A DNA stretch of 36,485 nt from an uncultured Clostridia bacterium (GTDB lineage: Bacteria > Bacillota > Clostridia > UMGS1883). The stretch lies in the NCBI GenBank assembly GCA_947630975.1, contig CANRJP010000018.1:1-36485 (forward strand). Reading direction: 5' to 3'. Numbering within the stretch: the stretch's first letter is position 1; each line of letters begins with the position of its first letter. The notes under the pieces were generated by a model. The model was not told the origin of the DNA. It did not search any database and was given only the letters and a program-made list of their open reading frames with translations. Shown here piece by piece: positions 17,730 through 28,722 of this stretch. Both the position numbers and the translations under genes were made by a program.

Positions 17730-19694
17730 TTACTTCTGCCGCGTCACCGGCTTGAGCGAGTCAAGAGAATACCATACCAACAGCCGGTCGCCCTCCTTGG
17801 AGGGGTCGTCCGCTACCACATATGAGCCGGCGGGGACAGCCTCGGTCACGGCGTTGATGCCCGTAAGGGCGCCGTCATTGTAGCCCGCCGCCATAACGGT
17901 GACGTTCAGGTCGGCGTCGGTGGTGTTGGTGAGCTTAAGGCTGCCGCCGTAATCGGAATAGACCGCAACACCGCCGTATGCCGCCACAGCCAGCCTGTCT
18001 TTGATGACGCCCCGGCTCGGGTCGTAGGCCGCCAGCTCTACGTTGGAGATTTCCCCCTTCGGCAGGGCGAACACGGCGGTCAGATCGTCGCCGGAGACCT
18101 TTGAAGTCGTGGAATATGTAACATTTCCGCCGTTGTCAAAGAACACCGCCGAAACCATGCAGAAGCGGTTGAGGGAAACCGTCAGAGTGTTCCCGTCTAT
18201 CTCCGCGTCGGAGATCCAGCCCACTTCCTCCGGCTCGGAGTAATGCATATCCCTTATTTCTCCTTCGTCCAGCGCTCGGGGATAGATAGTGAATTCATAT
18301 ATCTCGCCCTTGAAATACGGGTCGTTGTATGGCGATTTTGCCAGCCAGTTGTCGGCGGTGTCACCCAGCTCGGAGGGTGAAAAGCCTAAGTTCCCGGCGG
18401 CAATGGGCACGCCGTCCTTGTACATTTTAGCCTCGGTACCGCTGACGGTTACGGCCAGGGCGGCGGTCTCGCCGTCCCTTAGACCGGGCAGAGATGCGAT
18501 GTTCTTCTCGCTATCAGAGCCGTTGTTGGTCAGGGCCAGGCGCAGGGTGTTGATGTCCGGGTTCGGTCGGGAGGTGTTGAGGAAGAAATACTCATTCGTA
18601 CCGTTGCCAAAACAGAAAGTGAACTGATGAGTTTGGACAATTCCGTTCTTAAGCCGCATAACTATGGTAAATTCGTCGAGATCGGCCAGCATACCCCGGG
18701 GCAGCTCCACATAATCGTTCACGCCGTCAAAGGCCGAGCCGGTCTTGCCGCCGAAAAGCTTGCCGTGGTTGCCGTTGCCGCTCCTGTCCTCCACCACATC
18801 CACGGTATTTTCGTCAAAAACGTAGGAAAGTACCATATTGTCGTTGGCCTTTTGGGCGGCCTTCAAAACGGTGAAGTCAAATGTCTTAACTATGTCCTCG
18901 CCCCAAGGCCCCATTTTCTTTGTGCCGGTGAGGGTTACGGCGGTATTTTCGGCGGGGCGGGTGACCTTGCCTTCTGCGGAAATCACCTCCGGATGGTCGG
19001 ATATCCAATTCACGCCCGCACCCGCGGCGTCAATGTCAATATCGTCTATCAATGTGGACGGGAAGCCGCCGAAATATTCAAATGTTCTGTTGATCACCGC
19101 AAGGTCGTCCACCGTGGCTGAAAGAGCGTCGGCGCTCCAGTAGGTAGAGCCAAGGTACAAATCGCCGCCGCCGGAGACTACCGCGCCGGATGCGGCCAAA
19201 ACGCCGTCAACGTAAAGCTCGGCGCTGCCCATATTTTCAACATATTTTATCTCAACGGTCTTGCCGACGCAGTTCTCGGCTTTAGTTTCAAGGGCGGCCC
19301 AACGGAAAGTGTCGCCGTCATGGCTCCACACGTTTGGGACGCCGTTTTGAAAAATGACGCCCAGCCATTTTTCAGAGCTGCTCGTGCCCATGTTTTTAAA
19401 AAACAGAGTGCTTGTGTCTCCGGAAGAGGCGAGCGTAACTTTCGCGCTGACCTCGTAATACGGCCCAACGGAGCCAAGCTTAAGGCCGTAAGTGCCGTCC
19501 AGCTTCAAAGCGCCGCCGTCGTAAACCGCCGCGCCGCCGCTGCCAAGAGTGCTGGACACGGTCGTGGCGGGAGTTGCGAGGCCCGCCCCCTCTTCGGAGG
19601 CGAGACTGTTATCAAAACGGTACAGGCCCTCGGCCCCGGCGGTTACCGTTAGGGCGGCAAAGGCCGTCATAAAGGCAAGAATAAACTTTTTCAT
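17730..19694 (-). CDS. Secreted two-LamG-domain protein with atrophied Ig module
   Basis: The 654-residue protein has a signal peptide (MKKFILAFMTAFAALTVTAGA) and five regions: a first concanavalin-like/LamG domain (about 22-205), a short bacterial Ig-like module of the atrophied type (about 212-285, WISDHPEVISAEGKV), a second LamG_3-type domain (about 290-480, DRSGNGNHGKLFG...AFDGVNDYVELP then FKGEIYEFTIYPRALDEGEI), and two small C-terminal beta domains, the last ending LLVWYSLDSLKPV. LamG domains typically bind carbohydrate. It overlaps the GH43 gene by 4 bp (ATGA) with GGGAGG upstream, so the two are co-translated and probably act on the same polysaccharide outside the cell. No catalytic residues or cell-wall anchor are recognised. 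Confidence 0.85.
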   Translation of the reverse strand: MKKFILAFMTAFAALTVTAGAEGLYRFDNSLASEEGAGLATPATTVSSTLGSGGAAVYDGGALKLDGTYGLKLGSVGPYYEVSAKVTLASSGDTSTLFFKNMGTSSSEKWLGVIFQNGVPNVWSHDGDTFRWAALETKAENCVGKTVEIKYVENMGSAELYVDGVLAASGAVVSGGGDLYLGSTYWSADALSATVDDLAVINRTFEYFGGFPSTLIDDIDIDAAGAGVNWISDHPEVISAEGKVTRPAENTAVTLTGTKKMGPWGEDIVKTFDFTVLKAAQKANDNMVLSYVFDENTVDVVEDRSGNGNHGKLFGGKTGSAFDGVNDYVELPRGMLADLDEFTIVMRLKNGIVQTHQFTFCFGNGTNEYFFLNTSRPNPDINTLRLALTNNGSDSEKNIASLPGLRDGETAALAVTVSGTEAKMYKDGVPIAAGNLGFSPSELGDTADNWLAKSPYNDPYFKGEIYEFTIYPRALDEGEIRDMHYSEPEEVGWISDAEIDGNTLTVSLNRFCMVSAVFFDNGGNVTYSTTSKVSGDDLTAVFALPKGEISNVELAAYDPSRGVIKDRLAVAAYGGVAVYSDYGGSLKLTNTTDADLNVTVMAAGYNDGALTGINAVTEAVPAGSYVVADDPSKEGDRLLVWYSLDSLKPVTRQK

Positions 19695-21337
19695 TCTCCA
19701 TCGCCTCCCACTGTGATTTCCGCCACTCTGCCTGAGGCGGTGATTTTGTATGTGCCGCTTACTTCGGGGACAAAGCCGTAAGCGAATTTGCCCTCGCCGT
19801 CCGCCTTGGAATAGACTATGTGTGTTCCGTCGGGGACGGAGATAACTATTATCAGCTCCGCGCTGGGCTCGTTTGTCCCGTTTATGGTGATTTCGCCGTT
19901 TTCAAGGGATACATTCAGGCTCTGCTCCGCGAGGGCGGTTGTTTCAAAATATGCCGGTTCGTCGGCGAGTATAATGTTGCCGTACCCGTCAGCGGCCAGG
20001 TATTTCCCGGGCAGGGACTTGCTCTCGTATGCCGTCAGACCGCCGTCCTCATGGGGGATAAACGTCCTCCCGTTGAGGGAAGCTGTGCTGTCGTCGTTAT
20101 CGTGGTGCAGCTTCGCCATGCCCCGGTACTCGGTCACGTAATAGCCCATCTTGTTCACCGACCGGATATACACTCCGCCGTTACCCTCGGTTATCTCCCA
20201 AAGGGAATCGTTGGGATAAAGTCCGTTTTCCCCCAGCTTCAGCGTGGTTCCGGCGGGGTAGGCCGAGGGGAGAAATGAATTGTCCATGTGTACCTGAGTG
20301 AGTTTTTGACCGTTCAGCGAAAGGCTCACGGCTTGACCGTCGAGGCCGACGCTGCTTTCCTCAAGCTGGGCCACTCCGCCGTTTTCGTCAAAGTACAGCC
20401 TGTCCACGCAGACGCTGCGCAGATGCCCGTTTCCCTTTGGTTGGGCGCCGGTGTGGTAAATTATGTAGGTTTGACCCTTGAAGTCAATTATGGACGGATG
20501 GTTGGTGTCACTGGAGGCCCCGACGCCCATGACAAGGCCGGCGTATTCATAGGGTCCCCAAATGTTGTCCGAGACCGCGTAGGACAGCTCCTCGTGCCAG
20601 TTGCTGGCGAAAAATACGTAGTAGCGGCTGTCGCCGGGGCGCCGGTATATCCACGGGGCCTCGGTGTACTGGCTGTTTTCCGGGATGCCGTTTATGGTCA
20701 GCTCCCTGATGCCGCCGCTGCCGTCTTTGAGATTTATCATGTCCTCGCTCAGCTCGGTCAGATAGAGGTTGCTGTTGCCCCACATTAGATAGCGGTGTTC
20801 CACGCCGTTTTCGTCATTTTCGACCCACACGGTGGGGTCAATGTCGTCCCAGCTCACCTTGCCGTGGGTGAAGTTCGGGTCGATAAGCTGAACGCCGTTC
20901 CGGGCGTCCGTGAACGGCCCCGTAGGGCTGTCGGCAACCGCCACCGATATACCGGAGCCGTTTTTGCAGTTGTAAAAATAGTACTTGCCATTGTACTTTA
21001 TCACTTGACCTGCCCAGGCGTCGTCGGCCTTGGGGCTGCCCCAGGAGAAGTCGCCGGCCCTCAGCGGAACGCCCTCGTACTTCCAGTTCACCATATCGGT
21101 TGTGGAATAGCAGAGGTAGTCGGGCATACTGTAATACCCGCCGTCGCCGGTGTCGTGGCCCACATAGAGGTAGACCATGTCGCCCTCTCCGTCGCCGTCG
21201 GTGTCCTCCACCAGCGCCGCCGGGTCGCCGCAGTAGACCCGCGTACCCGGCTCGGTTTCGGTTATTTCGGGGTTCGAAGCCAAGGCCGCGGAGCACAGCA
21301 GCGCCGTCCCGAGGCAGGCCGATAAAAGTTTTTTCAT
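19691..21337 (-). CDS. Secreted GH43-family glycoside hydrolase with AbfB-like carbohydrate-binding module
   Basis: After a signal peptide (KKLLSACLGTALLCSAALAS) comes a five-bladed propeller typical of GH43: YCGDPAAL supplies the catalytic base Asp, DDIDPTVW the pKa-modulating Asp, and YTEAPWIY the catalytic acid Glu. CYSTTDMVNW is another family hallmark. Residues about 385-470 (VNKMGYYVTEYRGMAKLHH...YLAADGYG) resemble an AbfB/CBM42 arabinose-binding trefoil, and a small Ig-like domain ends the protein. An arabinofuranosidase or arabinan/arabinoxylan-active role is likely; a xylosidase is possible. A DTDGDGEGD calcium-loop-like insert follows the first catalytic Asp. The start chosen is ATG 21337, preferred over the track GTG 21346, with AAAGG about 10 bp upstream. 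Its promoter diverges from that of the AraC-family gene. Confidence 0.88.
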   Translation of the reverse strand: MKKLLSACLGTALLCSAALASNPEITETEPGTRVYCGDPAALVEDTDGDGEGDMVYLYVGHDTGDGGYYSMPDYLCYSTTDMVNWKYEGVPLRAGDFSWGSPKADDAWAGQVIKYNGKYYFYNCKNGSGISVAVADSPTGPFTDARNGVQLIDPNFTHGKVSWDDIDPTVWVENDENGVEHRYLMWGNSNLYLTELSEDMINLKDGSGGIRELTINGIPENSQYTEAPWIYRRPGDSRYYVFFASNWHEELSYAVSDNIWGPYEYAGLVMGVGASSDTNHPSIIDFKGQTYIIYHTGAQPKGNGHLRSVCVDRLYFDENGGVAQLEESSVGLDGQAVSLSLNGQKLTQVHMDNSFLPSAYPAGTTLKLGENGLYPNDSLWEITEGNGGVYIRSVNKMGYYVTEYRGMAKLHHDNDDSTASLNGRTFIPHEDGGLTAYESKSLPGKYLAADGYGNIILADEPAYFETTALAEQSLNVSLENGEITINGTNEPSAELIIVISVPDGTHIVYSKADGEGKFAYGFVPEVSGTYKITASGRVAEITVGGDGE

Positions 21338-21361
21338 CTTCCTCACACCTTTCTTTTTTTC

Positions 21362-21390
21362 ATTATAGCATTACCTCACAAATAATTCAA
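21362..21390 (-). promoter_or_regulatory. Promoter of the GH43-LamG operon
   Basis: On the minus strand TTGAAT, 17 bp and TATAAT, giving a very short leader (about 18 nt) before ATG 21337. Confidence 0.75.
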
Positions 21391-21396
21391 TGTAAA

Positions 21397-21421
21397 CTTG
21401 TACTTTTTGCTTGTATTTTTG
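21397..21421. promoter_or_regulatory. Tandem direct repeat, candidate AraC-family operator
   Basis: CTTGTACTTTTTG is followed immediately by CTTGTATTTTTG. The pair lies just upstream of the GH43 -35 box and covers the -35 of the divergent araC-type gene. Direct repeats at this position suit a dimeric AraC-family activator; binding is inferred. Confidence 0.5.
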
Positions 21422-21439
21422 TACACCGTGTGATATACT
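21411..21439 (+). promoter_or_regulatory. Promoter of the AraC-family gene
   Basis: TTGTAT, 17 bp and TATACT on the plus strand. The -35 lies in the direct repeat and the -10 in a palindrome, so both promoters of this divergent pair could be controlled by one protein. Confidence 0.65.
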
Positions 21440-21460
21440 AAAGCCAAGGCTTTAGTATAT
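21433..21460. promoter_or_regulatory. Perfect 13-bp palindrome over the araC-type -10/+1 region
   Basis: ATATACTAAAGCC and GGCTTTAGTATAT are exact complements with a 2-bp spacer. The position over the -10 and start site suggests an operator, most simply for repression. The 2-bp spacer makes an RNA hairpin less likely as its main role. Confidence 0.6.
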
Positions 21461-21472
21461 TTTCGATTTTAT

Positions 21473-21555
21473 GCGCCGCCGAAATTTTCCTCGCCCAAAG
21501 GCTCGGAAACGGCGATGCGCAATTGCACATAAATTTTTACAAATTTATGTGCAAT
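21473..21555 (+). promoter_or_regulatory. Structured 5' leader (two stem-loops) of the AraC-family mRNA
   Basis: Stem-loop 1 (21473-21520) nests GCGC/GCGC, GCCG/CGGC, TTTCC/GGAAA and GCC-CAAA-GGC. Stem-loop 2 (21522-21555) is a perfect 15-bp inverted repeat ATTGCACATAAATTT with a TTAC loop, followed by an A-tract and then the ribosome binding site. I do not recognise it as a known riboswitch class. Confidence 0.55.
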
Positions 21556-21574
21556 AAAAAAAGAGGTGAGGAAA

Positions 21575-22351
21575 ATGGACGAGTTCAGATTTGTAAACGC
21601 GGGCTGCGACGTGTCGGAGCCAAAGGGGCTGTGGTTTAATCGGGCAATTCCCCAGCACGCCTTCTTCTATTTTCAGGGGCCGGCGACGGTCGGCGGGAAG
21701 CGCGTCGATTCCGGGGCCTGCATTTTGTATACCGGCGGCACCGCCCACGATTATGCTACCCTTGACGGTTTTGTAAACAGCTACATAGGCTTTTTTGTGC
21801 CGGACGACATCCTTACCGGCTTGGGCATAAAGACCAACAAAGTTATCTATCCGGCCAACTGCTCCGAGATAAACGACATTTTGCGGGAGATCTGCGACGA
21901 GAACGGCTCACGGCATCAGGGGTACGAAACGGCCATCCTGTCCCTTATTTTAAAAATGCTGGTGACCATAGCCCGCGGCACCGGCGTGAAAAGGGACAGC
22001 ACCGAATTTGACCGGCTGCGGGATAAGATGACGGCGCTGCGGGGGCGGTATTTGGCGAATGTGGCCGAGCCGCCGAAAATCGACGCCATAATCCGTGAAT
22101 CGGGCCTGTCGCGGACGTGGTTTTATCGAATGTATTCCTCGATTTTTCATATGTCGCCCAAGGAGGATCTCATATGGGCGCGGCTGAAACGGGCCCGTAA
22201 TTTGATTTTGGAAAATCCCGACCGCAAGCTCTACGATGTGGCTGTGGACTGCGGCTTTATAGATATGCCCCACTTTTCGCACATTTTCAAAAACCGCTAC
22301 GGATATACGCCCAAGGCATACGCCGAAGCGGTGAAAAACAGCCGCGCATAA
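21575..22351 (+). CDS. AraC-family transcriptional regulator
   Basis: The 258-residue protein has an N-terminal cupin-like sensing region (about 1-150; GPATVGGKRVDSGACILYTGG then FVNSYIGFFVP) and a C-terminal double HTH (about 165-250): KIDAIIRESGLSRTWFYRMYSSIFHMSP and LYDVAVDCGFIDMPHFSHIFK followed by NRYGYTPKAYAEA, the standard AraC/XylS signature. AGAGGTGAGG lies upstream of ATG 21575. The track start (GTG 21566) falls inside that site and is rejected. The gene is divergent from the GH43-LamG operon and shares a compact control region with it, so it very likely regulates it in response to a sugar. The inducer is unknown. Confidence 0.92.
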   Translation: MDEFRFVNAGCDVSEPKGLWFNRAIPQHAFFYFQGPATVGGKRVDSGACILYTGGTAHDYATLDGFVNSYIGFFVPDDILTGLGIKTNKVIYPANCSEINDILREICDENGSRHQGYETAILSLILKMLVTIARGTGVKRDSTEFDRLRDKMTALRGRYLANVAEPPKIDAIIRESGLSRTWFYRMYSSIFHMSPKEDLIWARLKRARNLILENPDRKLYDVAVDCGFIDMPHFSHIFKNRYGYTPKAYAEAVKNSRA

Positions 22352-23288: not shown

Positions 23289-24812
23289 TTATTTTTTCTC
23301 CTCAAGATAACGCTTCGCGTCCTTAATAAAGCTCCATATCATGATTATCATGATAATGCCTATCGGGAAGGCGCTTATGATGCTTACGCTCTGGATGTTG
23401 CTCATGCTGCTCTCCGAGAACACCAACCCTATCGGCAGAACAATGAGCAGCAAGCACCACAGCAGGGTTATCATTGCGTGAGGCTTTTCATTTTGTCCCA
23501 GATTTTTATAACTGTAGCAGGCCGCCGTGTACGCTATGGAGTCAAAGGACGTGGCGTAAAAGGCTATCATACAAACCAGCGTCAGCACAAGAATGAGAGT
23601 GGAGCATGGCATGGTATTGATTATGTTCATGATAAGCCCGTACAGATCGCCGCTCGCCTCGTACTGGGCGATGAAGTCTGCCGCTCCCTTTGCCTGAAGA
23701 CCGAGGCTGTAGTTGCCGAGGATTATAAAGCTGACAATAGTCGAGCCCACGCCGAAAACGTAACCGCCGAGTATAGTCTGCTTTATCGTCCTGCCGCGGC
23801 TTATGTTGCCGATAAAGAAGGGCGCCGCTATGCACCATACCATCCAGTAAGCCCAGTAATATATGGTCCAATCCTGCGGGAAGCTGTTCGCCCTTACCGG
23901 ATCGGTATAGGTGGACAGCTCGAAGAAATTCTGGAACATTTTGCCCAGCGACTGGAAGCCGTTTTCAATGATAAATCGCCCCTGCCCGCCAATGACAAGA
24001 ACCAGAATGAGCAGGCCGAAGAAAAGATATATGCAGAGCTTGGCGAGGAAGCCTATGCCTTTAAAGCCGTGCATAACCGCGTATGTGTACACGGCGCAGG
24101 TTATGAGCAGAATAATTATTGTTACAGTCGTGCGGCTGATGCTCAAGCCGAAAAGCTGTAATATTATGCTCGCCATAAGCGGAGTCGCCACCGAAAAGGT
24201 GGTTGCCGTTCCGGCAAGGAGGGCAAACAGCGCGAAAAGGTCGATTACCCTGCCGACAATGCCGTCGGATTTTTTGCCCAGCACAGGACGGCAGGCCTCC
24301 GAGTAACGTTGGCGGCCGCGTTTCCGCACATGGAGCATGAAGCCGAAGGCCACCGCCAGCACCAGATAAAAGGCCCATGGGATAAAGCTCCAGTGGAACA
24401 GGGGGAATACTCCCGCCCACTCGGTAACGCTGCCCATATCGGCGATATGGGGGTTTGTGGCGTACATGACCCACTCGGAGAAGGAATAAAACAGTATGTC
24501 GGCGGCGAGGCCGCAGGTGAACATCATGCTGCCCCAGGTAAAGAATGAGTACCTCGGCTTTTCGCCCGGCTCACCGAGGACTATATTGCCGTACTTTGAA
24601 AAAGACAGGAACACCGAAATGAGCAGAACTCCCAGCCCTATTATCAGATAATACAGTCCCACCGTGTCCCCGAAGAAGAACCGAACCCTGCTTATGACCT
24701 CGTTGGATTTCACCGGGAAAATAAACAGCAGGACCGCCAATCCAACGATCAGAATAAACGGCGCTAAGGTTATCAGCCAGTCAACCCGGCTTTTTTGTTT
24801 TTTAGTATTCAT
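23289..24812 (-). CDS. BCCT-family transporter (choline/betaine/carnitine type)
   Basis: The 507-residue protein has the roughly 12 membrane segments and signature of BCCT carriers, which import quaternary-ammonium compounds: DWTIYYWAYWMVWCIAAPFFIGNISRGR is the family core around TM8 with the aromatic substrate box, preceded by FLSFSKYGNIVLG and WAGVFPLFHW motifs. A perfect GGAGGT stands 8 bp upstream of the ATG, and the gene overlaps the LicC-like gene by 11 bp. Its place at the end of a lic-type operon argues that it supplies choline for surface decoration, as LicB does in other bacteria although LicB belongs to a different family. Import of betaine for osmoprotection or metabolism is an alternative. 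Confidence 0.88.
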   Translation of the reverse strand: MNTKKQKSRVDWLITLAPFILIVGLAVLLFIFPVKSNEVISRVRFFFGDTVGLYYLIIGLGVLLISVFLSFSKYGNIVLGEPGEKPRYSFFTWGSMMFTCGLAADILFYSFSEWVMYATNPHIADMGSVTEWAGVFPLFHWSFIPWAFYLVLAVAFGFMLHVRKRGRQRYSEACRPVLGKKSDGIVGRVIDLFALFALLAGTATTFSVATPLMASIILQLFGLSISRTTVTIIILLITCAVYTYAVMHGFKGIGFLAKLCIYLFFGLLILVLVIGGQGRFIIENGFQSLGKMFQNFFELSTYTDPVRANSFPQDWTIYYWAYWMVWCIAAPFFIGNISRGRTIKQTILGGYVFGVGSTIVSFIILGNYSLGLQAKGAADFIAQYEASGDLYGLIMNIINTMPCSTLILVLTLVCMIAFYATSFDSIAYTAACYSYKNLGQNEKPHAMITLLWCLLLIVLPIGLVFSESSMSNIQSVSIISAFPIGIIMIIMIWSFIKDAKRYLEEKK

Positions 24813-25686
24813 CTTTGCTTACCTCCTGAATTTTTTTATCATTATATTTATATATAAATTTTTTACCGTTACATATGAACGTAAAGCCTACCGCCAAATT
24901 GTCCTTTCCCTTAATGGCGGCAATATTTTGCAGCTTTGACTCCTTTACGTTTAACCCCGACGCTACGGCTTTCAGTATCTTTGACCGGGTATCATCTATA
25001 TATGATGAGTCAAAGGCTCTAAGCTCGTCCAAGGTATCAAATTCAAAAATCGCTTCATCGGGATATTTTCGTATCCGCATCGGCAATTCGCGTATGTGGT
25101 CGATGTATATAGCTTCCCATAGCTTATCTTTTGTTTCCGGCAAAAAATATTCCTTCTCTAAAATTGACAAAAAATGCGAAGAAAATTCCTCGTTCCAGAA
25201 AACATGGCCCAGCATATACCAAACATTTTCACCGCCAATTTTAACCGAGCGGATATATCCGTCCGGCCCCTCCTCGATGCACCACTCGTTTGTCGCCCCA
25301 TGTGCGTACAGGGCGGAATAATACGCGCCGTCCACCTCAGGCTCAAAAGGGTTGATTGTGAAATAGTTGTCGCCGGAACAGATATATGTATTCCTTATGA
25401 CGTCTTTGGCCGCCCAAACACTCCCGTTATTGTTGCGGGTAAGATATTCCGTATTATGTATAAGCTTTACTCCGAACTTTTCCTTAAGATATGAGAACCT
25501 TTCCGCCTTATATCCGGTCACGACATATATTTCGTCTACTCCGGCCTCTCTAAGCTGTCTGATTTGCCTTTCGATGAGGGACTCGCCCCTTATCTCTATC
25601 AGGGCTTTGGGGTTTTCATATGACAGCGGCGCAAATCGGGCGGATGTTCCCGCAGCCATAATGACCGCGTTGTCAACCTTGCTCAT
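24802..25686 (-). CDS. licC: LicC-like CTP:phosphocholine cytidylyltransferase with vestigial kinase N-lobe
   Basis: LicC converts CTP and phosphocholine to CDP-choline. Residues 1-230 are a complete nucleotidyltransferase domain: IMAAGTSARFAPLSYENPKALIEI is the nucleotide-binding loop, YICSGDNYF carries the metal-binding Asp (D106), and GGENVWYMLGHVFW and ELPMRIRKYPD match the canonical LicC-type core. Residues about 236-294 (LKAVASGLNVKESKLQNIAAIKG...FTFICNGKKFIYK) align with the first 50 residues of the kinase domain in the neighbouring fusion protein, then stop. The catalytic loop and DWE motif of a kinase are missing. The gene overlaps both neighbours (14 and 11 bp). The start ATG has GGGAGGAG rather far upstream (13 bp), so translation is probably coupled. 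Confidence 0.82.
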   Translation of the reverse strand: MSKVDNAVIMAAGTSARFAPLSYENPKALIEIRGESLIERQIRQLREAGVDEIYVVTGYKAERFSYLKEKFGVKLIHNTEYLTRNNNGSVWAAKDVIRNTYICSGDNYFTINPFEPEVDGAYYSALYAHGATNEWCIEEGPDGYIRSVKIGGENVWYMLGHVFWNEEFSSHFLSILEKEYFLPETKDKLWEAIYIDHIRELPMRIRKYPDEAIFEFDTLDELRAFDSSYIDDTRSKILKAVASGLNVKESKLQNIAAIKGKDNLAVGFTFICNGKKFIYKYNDKKIQEVSKDEY

Positions 25687-27430
25687 TGAGTTTTTTCATC
25701 TCCTCCCGCGCATATCTGTAGTACTCTTTGGCGTAACGGTACTGCCGCAAGGAATATTCGCCAAACTCAACGCCGAGATTGCGCTTGTATTCGCACCAAT
25801 TGCTCCATAGTAAACCGCAAGCCGCTATATAACAATAGATTTTCACCTTTGTTTCCGACGGACAGTTTCCGTCAAAATAAATGGATATGAGCCTGTCCAC
25901 CTGACGTTTGTTGTACATTGAATAGATACAGAACATGGCAATGTCCATATGTGGGTCCTGCATACCGGCGTATTCCCAATCCGTAAGCTGTATTTCATCC
26001 CCGTCGAACAGGAAATTGTCCGGAACGGCGTCAATATGCGTCAACACTTTCTTACCGGCATGGGACTCAATGTACCCCCGAAGAGACAGAACCTTTTCCT
26101 TTGTCTGTTGGTGGTCCCTGTATATGGACGGAGTTCCGTTCCAAAGAGATTCGTAAAAATCTATCATCCCGAAAATATCAAACTCATGCTCAACCGAAAG
26201 TTCCATTTCGTGAAAACTCCTGAGCCTCTTCATGCAGCTCCTGATGTCAGTCACGTCAAGAGGATCGCACGTCCGAACATTTTCTATGTACTTGGTTATC
26301 TTATAGCCATTGGTTGGGTCGATATATACCGGGTCGTCACAAAGTCCCTTGCCGGATATGGTACGGTAAACCGCCGCTTCTTTTTGCCGGTCGATAAGCA
26401 TATCCGTTCCCTCTCCCGGAACGCGCATTATATACCGCTGTCCATAGCAAGAAAAAATGAACGAACGGTTAGTCATGCCCTTTTTCAGGACTTCAATATC
26501 CGTGATTTCCTTTGTGTCAACGCCAAGGACTTTTGCGATGACGTTCAAGGCGTCGGAATTAAGCTGAGACGAGCTGCTGTCCAGTTCGCGGAGCTGTTCA
26601 TAGGTGTTTATCTCCACCACATCGGCGGCACGGATCACCTTGGCGCAAACTATCATTTTACCTCTTTCATAGAGAGCCTCCTCCCAGAACGAATTATCAA
26701 AGCGGCTGTCGGAGCAGAGGGCTTCCACTCGTTCACGTACCTCATTCGCCTGCTCCTGAAGAAGGTATGCTATGCCGACCATGGAATTGCCCCCGACGCC
26801 GTGATTGACCGTAACCAGCTCAGACTTGCGGTTCACTCTTACGGAACTGTCATCGTCCACAAGATCGCTTACCATATACCACGAATACAGTTCCCGCGTA
26901 CTGAACGGGTTACTGTCACACCAAATGTCGCCGGGAATAATGTATGTGTTTGAGATATGTCCAACAGCCAGCTTTAAAGAGTGGAGATTATTTTTCGTTC
27001 CATAGTCCGGATTGACTATCAGTTCAACGCCATACTCATCGATCAGGTATTCAAACTGCTCCTTCATAAAGCCGACAACAACATATATTTCTCTTATGCC
27101 AACCTCGTGGAGTTGACGAATTGTCCGCTCAATAAGTGGTTCGCCGTTTACCTCCAACAGAGCTTTCGGCGCGGAGGTGTTGATAGGAGCCATCCTCATG
27201 CCGGCGCCGGCGGCAAGGATCACCGCGTTTTTTGGGGACTTGCTCCTGATTTCATTCTGCGCTTTTTCCGTTGGACGTATATCGTCGCTCAAGTATCCGT
27301 CTTTGATTAACGACTTGACGGATCGATTGACCGTTCCGAGAGAGTGACCGCAAAGCTCGGCCAATATGCGCTGATTTATATACGGCTCCAACATCAATGC
27401 GTTCAAGACATCGCATTCTTGTTTGTTCAT
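25673..27430 (-). CDS. Triple fusion: winged HTH + LicC-like cytidylyltransferase + LicA-like choline kinase
   Basis: The 585-residue protein joins three domains. Residues 1-60 form a winged HTH (NQRILAELCGHSLGTVNRSVKSLIKDGYL). Residues 67-290 form a nucleotidyltransferase (VILAAGAGMRMAPINTSAPKALLEV; YIIPGDIW with D168). Residues 293-585 form a choline/aminoglycoside-type kinase with the catalytic loop VLTHIDAVPDNFLF (H465, D467, N472) and LTDWEYAGMQDPHMDIAMF (metal Asp 484). It could both phosphorylate an amino-alcohol and activate it with CTP. The nucleotidyltransferase core differs from the canonical LicC core of the next gene and lacks its GGENVWYMLGHV stretch, so the substrate may differ. 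The track start (TTG 27496) is replaced by ATG 27430, which has a perfect AAAGGAGG 8 bp upstream. The HTH could allow choline-pathway feedback on transcription. Confidence 0.82.
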   Translation of the reverse strand: MNKQECDVLNALMLEPYINQRILAELCGHSLGTVNRSVKSLIKDGYLSDDIRPTEKAQNEIRSKSPKNAVILAAGAGMRMAPINTSAPKALLEVNGEPLIERTIRQLHEVGIREIYVVVGFMKEQFEYLIDEYGVELIVNPDYGTKNNLHSLKLAVGHISNTYIIPGDIWCDSNPFSTRELYSWYMVSDLVDDDSSVRVNRKSELVTVNHGVGGNSMVGIAYLLQEQANEVRERVEALCSDSRFDNSFWEEALYERGKMIVCAKVIRAADVVEINTYEQLRELDSSSSQLNSDALNVIAKVLGVDTKEITDIEVLKKGMTNRSFIFSCYGQRYIMRVPGEGTDMLIDRQKEAAVYRTISGKGLCDDPVYIDPTNGYKITKYIENVRTCDPLDVTDIRSCMKRLRSFHEMELSVEHEFDIFGMIDFYESLWNGTPSIYRDHQQTKEKVLSLRGYIESHAGKKVLTHIDAVPDNFLFDGDEIQLTDWEYAGMQDPHMDIAMFCIYSMYNKRQVDRLISIYFDGNCPSETKVKIYCYIAACGLLWSNWCEYKRNLGVEFGEYSLRQYRYAKEYYRYAREEMKKLNEQG

Positions 27431-27473
27431 GTACGTTTCCTCCTTTTGTTTTGTGAACATGGGGGCATTTTTC

Positions 27474-27489
27474 GGGGCCGGTTGGCCCC
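27474..27489 (-). other. GC-rich intercistronic hairpin
   Basis: GGGGCC and GGCCCC flank a 4-nt loop, just after the stop of the nucleotidyltransferase gene and before the fusion gene. No T-run follows, so it is more likely an mRNA stability or pausing element than a full terminator. Confidence 0.45.
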
Positions 27490-27492
27490 AAA

Positions 27493-28722
27493 TCAAAGTA
27501 TTTTGTATTTTTTCAGCAGTTCCGTCCGTCTGTGACTTATTTTCATACCCTCAAGGGCAAGATTTTTGTTTTCGCCTTTGCTGAGCCTGATGAACTTTAT
27601 CCAGCGCCCCACCCATACCTTCGGCAGTAGCCAAGGCTTGTCCTCGAGCTCCGGATGTTGGTTGAGCATCTGGGCCTTGTCGGGGAAGATAACATTGAAA
27701 AGGGCCTTTGCTCCGTTTGAATGTTTGGCCTTTCCTCTTGAAGAAAATGCCGCCCGTGTTAATTCGTGGGCCGAGCGCTGGGCCTCGGTACCGTTGCCGA
27801 AAGCTCCGTTACTCATCAGGTCGTCGAGCAGCTCATCCGGGCAGTTGGGCGGACAGAGAGACTCAAGCTTGAAGCCAAGATATGTATTACCAATGTAGAT
27901 CAAGTCGGACAAAAACAGTTCGGCCTCAAAATCTTTGGTCGTGGATTTTATGTAGTCCCAGTCAATTTCACCACCGTATTTTTCGGCATAGAGCAGTATA
28001 TCCAGTACTTGGCGGATACCGAAGCCCCCGGAAATAAGGTGCCGAAAAGCGTGAAACACCAAATAGAGAAAATGGTCGGTATGGTTCATTGTGCGAACCG
28101 GCACGCCGTCAGCGTCAAACTCACGGTAGTTGGCAAATACATCTTTGAAGCATTCGTTCATTCTGCTGCACAGGGGATTACCGTGTCCGGTGGGATTGAG
28201 GTGCAGTTCGATATACAGCCCATCCTCGCCGGAGCCATAGAAGCTAATCTCCTGAAGCTCATCTATTTGTCCCTTGGTTATGTCATCACGCTCGATTTTG
28301 TAGCCTTGTCTTTCGAGAATACCCTTGGCCTTTTCAAAGTCTTTCTTTTCTATCAGAATATCCTCGTCCCCCGATGGCCGGTGGTCGGCCAACTCGCCGT
28401 AAAGCTGACGGCAGACAAGCCCCTTCATCACAATAGGGTGTAAATCCTCCGCCAAAAACGCACGGTAAAGATTCAAAAATGCTTCCGTGTGCCGAGCCTG
28501 ACGCATTATCCACTGCATGGAGATGGTCATGTAGGTCTGATAATTGGGCGAATTAATGAAGTCATCATATTCCGACGCCGCCTCGAATATCAGCGGCAGG
28601 ACGTTGTGGTTTTTGGCGAGGGTGAATACGGCGGGCCAATTTATCGGCGGCAATGGTTTTGCGAACGAGTTATGTACAGATTTATTTAGCAAAGAAAGGA
28701 ATGCGCTTGCGTCACTATCCAT
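27493..28722 (-). CDS. NTP_transf_5-type nucleotidyltransferase-fold protein, candidate LicD-like transferase
   Basis: The 409-residue protein has an N-terminal helical region (WPAVFTLAKNHNVLPLIFEA) and then VMKGLVCRQLYG followed by HRPSGDEDILI (D119, D121), the pattern of the uncharacterised nucleotidyltransferase family NTP_transf_5 (motif K-G...R-x-x-x-D-x-D-x-L-V/I). The next part (FYLVFHAFRHLISGGFGIRQVLDILLY, near residue 225) is also typical. Such proteins are frequent in capsule and teichoic-acid clusters but their reaction is not established. No LicD (phosphocholine transferase) is present in this otherwise complete lic set, and LicD too has a nucleotidyltransferase-like fold, so this protein is the best local candidate for the transfer step; that is inference. 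CGAGGGAG precedes the ATG, 14 bp after the upstream gene. Confidence 0.72.
   Translation of the reverse strand: MDSDASAFLSLLNKSVHNSFAKPLPPINWPAVFTLAKNHNVLPLIFEAASEYDDFINSPNYQTYMTISMQWIMRQARHTEAFLNLYRAFLAEDLHPIVMKGLVCRQLYGELADHRPSGDEDILIEKKDFEKAKGILERQGYKIERDDITKGQIDELQEISFYGSGEDGLYIELHLNPTGHGNPLCSRMNECFKDVFANYREFDADGVPVRTMNHTDHFLYLVFHAFRHLISGGFGIRQVLDILLYAEKYGGEIDWDYIKSTTKDFEAELFLSDLIYIGNTYLGFKLESLCPPNCPDELLDDLMSNGAFGNGTEAQRSAHELTRAAFSSRGKAKHSNGAKALFNVIFPDKAQMLNQHPELEDKPWLLPKVWVGRWIKFIRLSKGENKNLALEGMKISHRRTELLKKYKIL

Follow-up and report, generated by a model that had tools for sequence, protein, structure and literature searches.

The window analysed here is a 36,485-nucleotide stretch of DNA from an uncultured Clostridia bacterium (contig CANRJP010000018.1). 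In it, a gene for an AraC-family regulator and an operon headed by a GH43 glycoside hydrolase gene diverge from a compact control region (Table 1). The initial annotation had described divergent promoters with a tandem repeat between them, and both were found as claimed. The repeat, of 11-13 bp, has a period of 13, and its second copy includes the -35 hexamer of the AraC promoter; judged by sequence, it may be an operator. The closest ortholog of the AraC protein (91% identical over 255 amino acids), encoded in genome G007, has the same divergent promoter region and ribosome binding site (RBS). The compact arrangement was likewise confirmed as conserved, since 86 of 96 positions upstream of the insertion described below are identical in G007. 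Elsewhere in the window, positions 23289-27496 of the minus strand hold a BCCT-type transporter and two nucleotidyltransferase genes, one of them fused to winged-helix and choline-kinase-like domains; this is a lic-like choline/phosphocholine locus.

Table 1 Features of the divergent AraC/GH43 control region, in window coordinates
Feature	Position	Strand	Remarks
GH43 glycoside hydrolase, first gene of divergent operon	19691..21337	-	
GH43 operon promoter	21362..21390	-	-35 TTGAAT, 17-bp spacer, -10 TATAAT; host sequence, conserved in G007
Tandem direct repeat CTTGTACTTTT/CTTGTATTTTT	21397-21407 and 21410-21420	+	Period 13; host sequence, mostly kept in G007
AraC-type gene promoter	21411..21439	+	-35 TTGTAT (21411-21416), 17-bp spacer, extended -10 TGATATACT with hexamer TATACT (21434-21439)
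Hairpin 1	21433..21460	+	5' arm is the host -10; 3' arm is an inverted, guide-like copy of that -10
Inserted element (proposed mobile element), about 116 bp	21440..21555	+	Ends uncertain by a few bases
Conserved core with covarying bulged hairpin (21473-21520)	21465..21522	+	Recovered class-wide by covariance model R1
Hairpin 3, perfect 15-bp arms	21522..21555	+	Six bases before the Shine-Dalgarno sequence AGAGGTGAGG
RBS AGAGGTGAGG of AraC-type gene	21562..21571	+	Host sequence
AraC-family regulator, 258 aa (HTH_18, HTH_AraC)	21575..22351	+	

A dispersed element inserted behind the AraC promoter

The initial annotation had also noted three structures, namely a 13-bp palindrome covering the regulator's -10, a nested stem-loop and, by the RBS, a perfect 15-bp hairpin. 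All three exceed chance and were correctly described; what had been missed is that they form one repeated unit. Hairpin 1 is the palindrome ATATACTAAAGCC-AA-GGCTTTAGTATAT (arms 13/13) and spans the -10 TATACT. The 3' arm of hairpin 3 terminates in a -10-like sequence, ATGTGCAAT in the window and ATGGTATAAT in most copies. In the window copy, hairpins 1 and 3 have diverged from each other (TATACT versus TGCAAT), yet each is perfectly paired. None of 200 dinucleotide shuffles folded as stably as the leader (z = -4.24).

Palindrome, stem-loop and hairpin together (21433-21555) are one copy of a dispersed element of ~115 bp. Querying the window's own genome with positions 21350-21580 gave three other copies at 86-89% identity, four in all, and these three span the palindrome, the nested stem-loop and the hairpin but not the upstream promoter. 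Within the family, 11 of 21 genomes carry copies, up to 14 per genome, with none in G007, and the copies have the three hairpins in common. The AraC-type promoter is the insertion target; its G007 counterpart reads TGATAGAAT. The empty site in G007 is TGTGATAGAATAACAGAGAGGTGAGG, where the sequence TGTGATAGAATAACAGAGAGGTGAGGAAAATG is continuous and the window has about 115 extra bases. The stems, whose conservation at orthologous loci the initial annotation had made its test, are wholly absent there. This comparison is compatible with a short target duplication or none, and the exact ends of the element are uncertain because -10-like sequence is present at both. Further empty sites were found for three insertions, at RNase J, Asp23 and SpoIVA genes; for a copy before a LysR gene (L004), none of the relatives examined had the downstream gene at the corresponding place. 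We conclude that the divergent AraC/GH43 promoter region is otherwise conventional and that 21440-21555 was inserted into it. The insertion may affect expression of the AraC regulator, through the longer leader or the right-end -10.

The leader stems had been thought to match no riboswitch, and a search of the window against Rfam indeed returned no match at the gathering score, with only chance-level matches in the region at permissive thresholds. The core of the other copies had no Rfam match either, and the core pattern had none in viral contigs. Literature searches yielded related small repeats but no description of this element family, which is absent from Rfam.

Position of the copies and concordance of arms and flanks

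In the genus copies, the left end of the element falls on a promoter -10, usually an extended -10 (TRTGNTATAAT); the -35 of that promoter is part of the host sequence. Hairpin 1 thus has promoter DNA as its 5' arm, which should therefore be absent from the transcript. Nearly all of the ~60 copies followed downstream lie directly 5' of a gene and in its orientation. By the names read from their translations, these genes are unrelated: AraC, LysR and TetR regulators, RNase J, YchF, SpoIVA, PheS, YicC and transporters. A leader dedicated to this AraC regulator, as first envisaged, is not supported, given its absence at the G007 ortholog, the unrelated genes behind other copies and the DNA-like covariation described below.

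Concordance was tested in 30 hand-curated copies with both outer hairpins, which are not phylogenetically independent. In 26 of these, the left-flank -10 hexamer and the inner left arm were inverses of each other (13.8 expected from shuffled copies); the same held for the right end and the inner right arm in 27 (13.9 expected), and the left and right outer -10 hexamers were identical in 22 (13.5 expected). All three concordances had p < 1e-4 under global shuffling and 0.0003-0.0006 under shuffling within genomes (0.0004 for the outer pair), and the other arm pairs were likewise concordant. TATAAT, TAAAAT, TACAAT or GAATAAT tends to recur in all four arms of one copy, as does TAAAAT in L004 and L056, TACAAT in L045 and GAATAAT in the SpoIVA copy, where element-free relatives read TTTATGGAATAA (host GGAATAA). 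At the RNase J promoter of genome G001, an insertion with empty sites in six relatives, the inverted inner arm tracks host-specific sequence over 17 bases; this copy has 38 nt of host sequence on both sides, with inverted copies of it inside. An automatic hairpin finder favours a copy's own arms by construction and chose host palindromes in a few promoter copies; its promoter result was left out, and the promoter-copy concordance is that of the hand-curated test.

Covariation of the stems

Stem covariation is usually taken to prove a functional RNA, and selection on a sense RNA would favour G-U pairs. The covariance analysis proposed in the initial annotation did reveal strong covariation, but among copies at unrelated genes and of a DNA-like kind. 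The arms of hairpins 1 and 3 comprised 771 Watson-Crick cells, 13 G-U and 15 A-C. In the core, compared class-wide over 87 distinct copies, 14 of 17 pairs had changes on both sides and covariation was 0.346 versus 0.091 after shuffling, values inflated in pairing as the alignment was fitted to the model. The same pairs held 15 G-U versus 30 A-C cells, whereas the bias from fitting should favour G-U, not A-C. Since there is no G-U excess and the 5' arm of hairpin 1 lies upstream of the expected transcript, we read the covarying stems as DNA-level structure, not selected RNA. The A-C excess in the core, if real, would indicate the opposite strand; because the copies are related, we treat it as a lead only.

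One core with three sets of flanks

Covariance model R1 of the core matched 19 of 28 genomes of the order and 42 of 391 sampled genomes of the class; in a 399-genome sample of the phylum, only one genome beyond the window's own had matches, and these were weak. The core occurs in three contexts: behind a -10, as in the window (set P), at Shine-Dalgarno (SD) and start sites (set R), and behind intrinsic terminators (set T).

Set R copies (L181, L179, L184, L185, L188-L192, L054, L062, L100-L102, L105, L110) lie behind an SD, with an inner arm GCCTCC able to pair with host GGAGG and a GTG/TTG start next. The SD and GTG/TTG start fall within hairpin 1, with a short frame VKVPFTL.., and the right end bears GGAATGGAG together with the next gene's ATG. 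For the distal arms of set R copies, pairing with the copy's own host flank is better than with other flanks (132 versus 91 of 216), a figure somewhat favoured by the selection of hairpins by pairing. The conserved 3' part, AATAATCTCTTATCATTCCTTGCCCTG..GATAAGAGA..GCAGGGCGGCGGAATGGAGATTATT-ATG, allows two competing pairings, one of which masks the SD of the next gene, and resembles a translational attenuator. Set T copies (L143, L144, L145, L155, L162, L169, L176) lie directly behind the tail of an intrinsic terminator; their inner arms follow that tail (TTTTTTTAC/GTAAAAAA, TTTGTTAC/GTAACAAA) and their right end is terminator-like. One of them stands behind a T-box leader, confirmed with Rfam.

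Several further arrangements were seen among the copies. Tandem or chained copies, in which the right end of one is the target of the next, occur in L178, L192, L184, L083 and L063. In L084/L202 and L204-L210, the genus right end TTTTTACAAATTTATGGTATAAT is nearly the RNase J promoter of genomes that are element-free there, and the right arm of the family may derive from that promoter. A second, unrelated palindromic repeat, TATAATATTTATAGATTTGCTTCGCAAA..TTTTTGCTCATGGTATAATA, is found at the same -10 sites, in L203 (the RNase J promoter of G002, with three in tandem) and in the flanks of L089, L003 and L091. L003 and L046 have long perfect inverted repeats in the host flank, just upstream of or over the -35, for example ACTGAATAAAAGTC-ATT-GACTTTTATTCAGT.

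Discussion

The observed repeat, empty site, position, arm concordance and DNA-type covariation lead us to propose, with a probability of about 0.85, that the structured leader is a non-autonomous mobile element inserted behind the AraC -10. A three-hairpin element of ~116 bp would have landed just behind this -10 after the lineage split from G007, keeping the host -35, -10 and RBS in place and lengthening the 5' leader by about 115 nt. Its central hairpin would be the conserved recognition unit. Hairpin 1 joins the host -10 to an inverted copy within the element, and hairpin 3 joins a second inverted copy to the -10-like right end. By analogy with IS200/IS605, we take it as the most likely route, at a little under even odds, that the inner arms are DNA guides which select the target by base pairing. 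The element would thus settle beside a promoter signal and regenerate one at its other end, and template-switch repair within the hairpins would then keep the arms perfect or extend the match. Any effect on AraC expression would be a by-product unless shown otherwise. No mobilising enzyme was identified for the element. Of 28 genomes of the order, 16 encode PF01797 (Y1 transposase); it was not detected in G001 (13 copies) or G013 (3 copies), all incomplete drafts. The Y1 transposase was rejected as an obligate partner, as its presence does not track the copies in these drafts.

A target duplication is not expected of plain IS200/IS605 insertion, and the host sequence of 38 nt on either side of the G001 RNase J copy counts against that reading. 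Among members of this family, IS608 and ISDra2, along with their non-autonomous derivatives, resemble our element in inserting behind a short target kept as left flank, in one orientation, and in the order target-guide-hairpin-guide-hairpin-right site (PMC5934647). Each of the IS608 hairpins has a guide on its 5' side; these guides base-pair with the target and with the right site, and altering them leads to retargeting (PMC5934647). Here, the retained left target is complementary to an internal guide-like arm 5' of a hairpin (26/30 copies), and the right end to a second such arm 5' of the second hairpin (27/30). The element differs in pairing 6-9 or more bases, compared with 4 in IS200/IS605, in its targets (promoter -10, SD/start or terminator tail), in having no transposase found with it, and in some copies with host sequence on both sides. 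REP sequences (REPtrons, with TnpA_REP) are small dispersed imperfect palindromes with a conserved stem bulge (PMC8266576), which recalls the imperfect palindrome with AAAT and AT bulges conserved in our 87 distinct copies. However, the foot consensus of the element is GATTTTAT, without a GTAG/GGAG-type tetranucleotide at the 5' foot, and the element comprises two more hairpins and is located at expression signals; in the absence of the foot tetranucleotide, classification as a REP sequence was rejected. BOX, RUP and SPRITE of Streptococcus pneumoniae are small structured interspersed repeats considered parasitic, SPRITE being terminator-like (PMC3049150); compared by description, they differ in that no single core with flanks of three kinds and arms matching the target is reported for them. 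Correia elements are classical MITEs, short, non-autonomous and able to bring promoters (PMC2229807). Our element shares these traits but has target-complementary inner arms and no terminal inverted repeats.

Other explanations fit parts of these data. The stable fold (z = -4.24), the hairpin adjoining the RBS, the covariation of the core across Clostridia and the near confinement of copies to 5' regions would suit a dedicated cis-regulatory RNA leader of the AraC-type gene, riboswitch-like or protein-bound. We consider this highly improbable, as the structure is missing at the G007 ortholog, copies precede unrelated genes, there is neither a G-U excess nor an Rfam match, and hairpin 1 has a 5' arm of promoter DNA, upstream of where transcription is expected to start; given the empty site and the unrelated downstream genes, a riboswitch or AraC-specific leader was rejected. 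A MITE of the cut-and-paste type, bounded by terminal inverted repeats and duplicating 8-9 bp of target (GGTATAATA), would explain the -10 at both ends of most copies and agrees with an empty site compatible with a short duplication. It is nonetheless quite improbable, because AAAGCCAAGGC... and ...GCAAATTTAT, the presumed ends, do not form inverted repeats of each other; on this ground a DDE-type MITE is disfavoured.

The arms might instead have been copied from the target at insertion, through a long-stagger cut of the target after which each single-stranded 3' end folds back and serves as its own template; the product would be H - H' - core - H' - H, with the core alone inherited. This would account for the G001 RNase J copy, with TTTTTACAAATTTATGATATAATAACATCATGATTAAA on both sides and inverted beside the core and with its six element-free relatives, for GAATAAT in the four arms of the SpoIVA copy at host GGAATAA, and for the first hairpins of 16-20 bp in L051 and L084. 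However, AAAGCC and AAATTTATG outside the core are common to most copies, so those outer parts are inherited, and beyond the -10 the right flanks mostly do not repeat the left flank; we judge target copying unlikely and retain it because of the G001 RNase J copy. Alternatively, an ordinary insertion near a TATAAT-like sequence could have been followed by template switching (quasipalindrome correction), which alone matched the arms to the host, with no guide. Template switching is documented in bacteria and able to create and maintain perfect stems (PMC8794818, PMC7202029). A tandem pair in L083, with identical cores and a one-base arm difference that matches the partner in one copy and not in the other, speaks for it, as does the absence of a G-U bias. 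Against it, the left and right outer -10s agree above expectation despite ~115 bp of separation, and the occurrence of each flank type at one kind of signal stays unexplained. Template switching as the sole cause appears somewhat unlikely.

Returning to guide-like arms, the three sets of flanks raise the tentative idea, which we hold with less than even confidence, that mobile DNA elements guided by base pairing form a natural family, defined by one conserved bulged-hairpin core with interchangeable flanks. Equally tentatively, the inner arms would then aim at one of three universal expression signals, a promoter -10, an SD/start or a terminator tail, and the right end would rebuild a signal of the same kind, so that insertions would be tolerated beside almost any gene.

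The element is a previously undescribed dispersed DNA element of Clostridia that lies beside gene-expression signals. Its strongly covarying stems are those of dispersed DNA, with one arm outside the expected transcript; counts of G-U versus A-C cells and checks for empty sites are therefore needed before a leader is called an RNA. It is also a clean test case for template switching that keeps palindromes perfect. If the inner arms do act as guides, natural elements already target promoters, ribosome binding sites and terminators through DNA base pairing, which would aid the understanding of promoter evolution and the design of targeted insertion tools.
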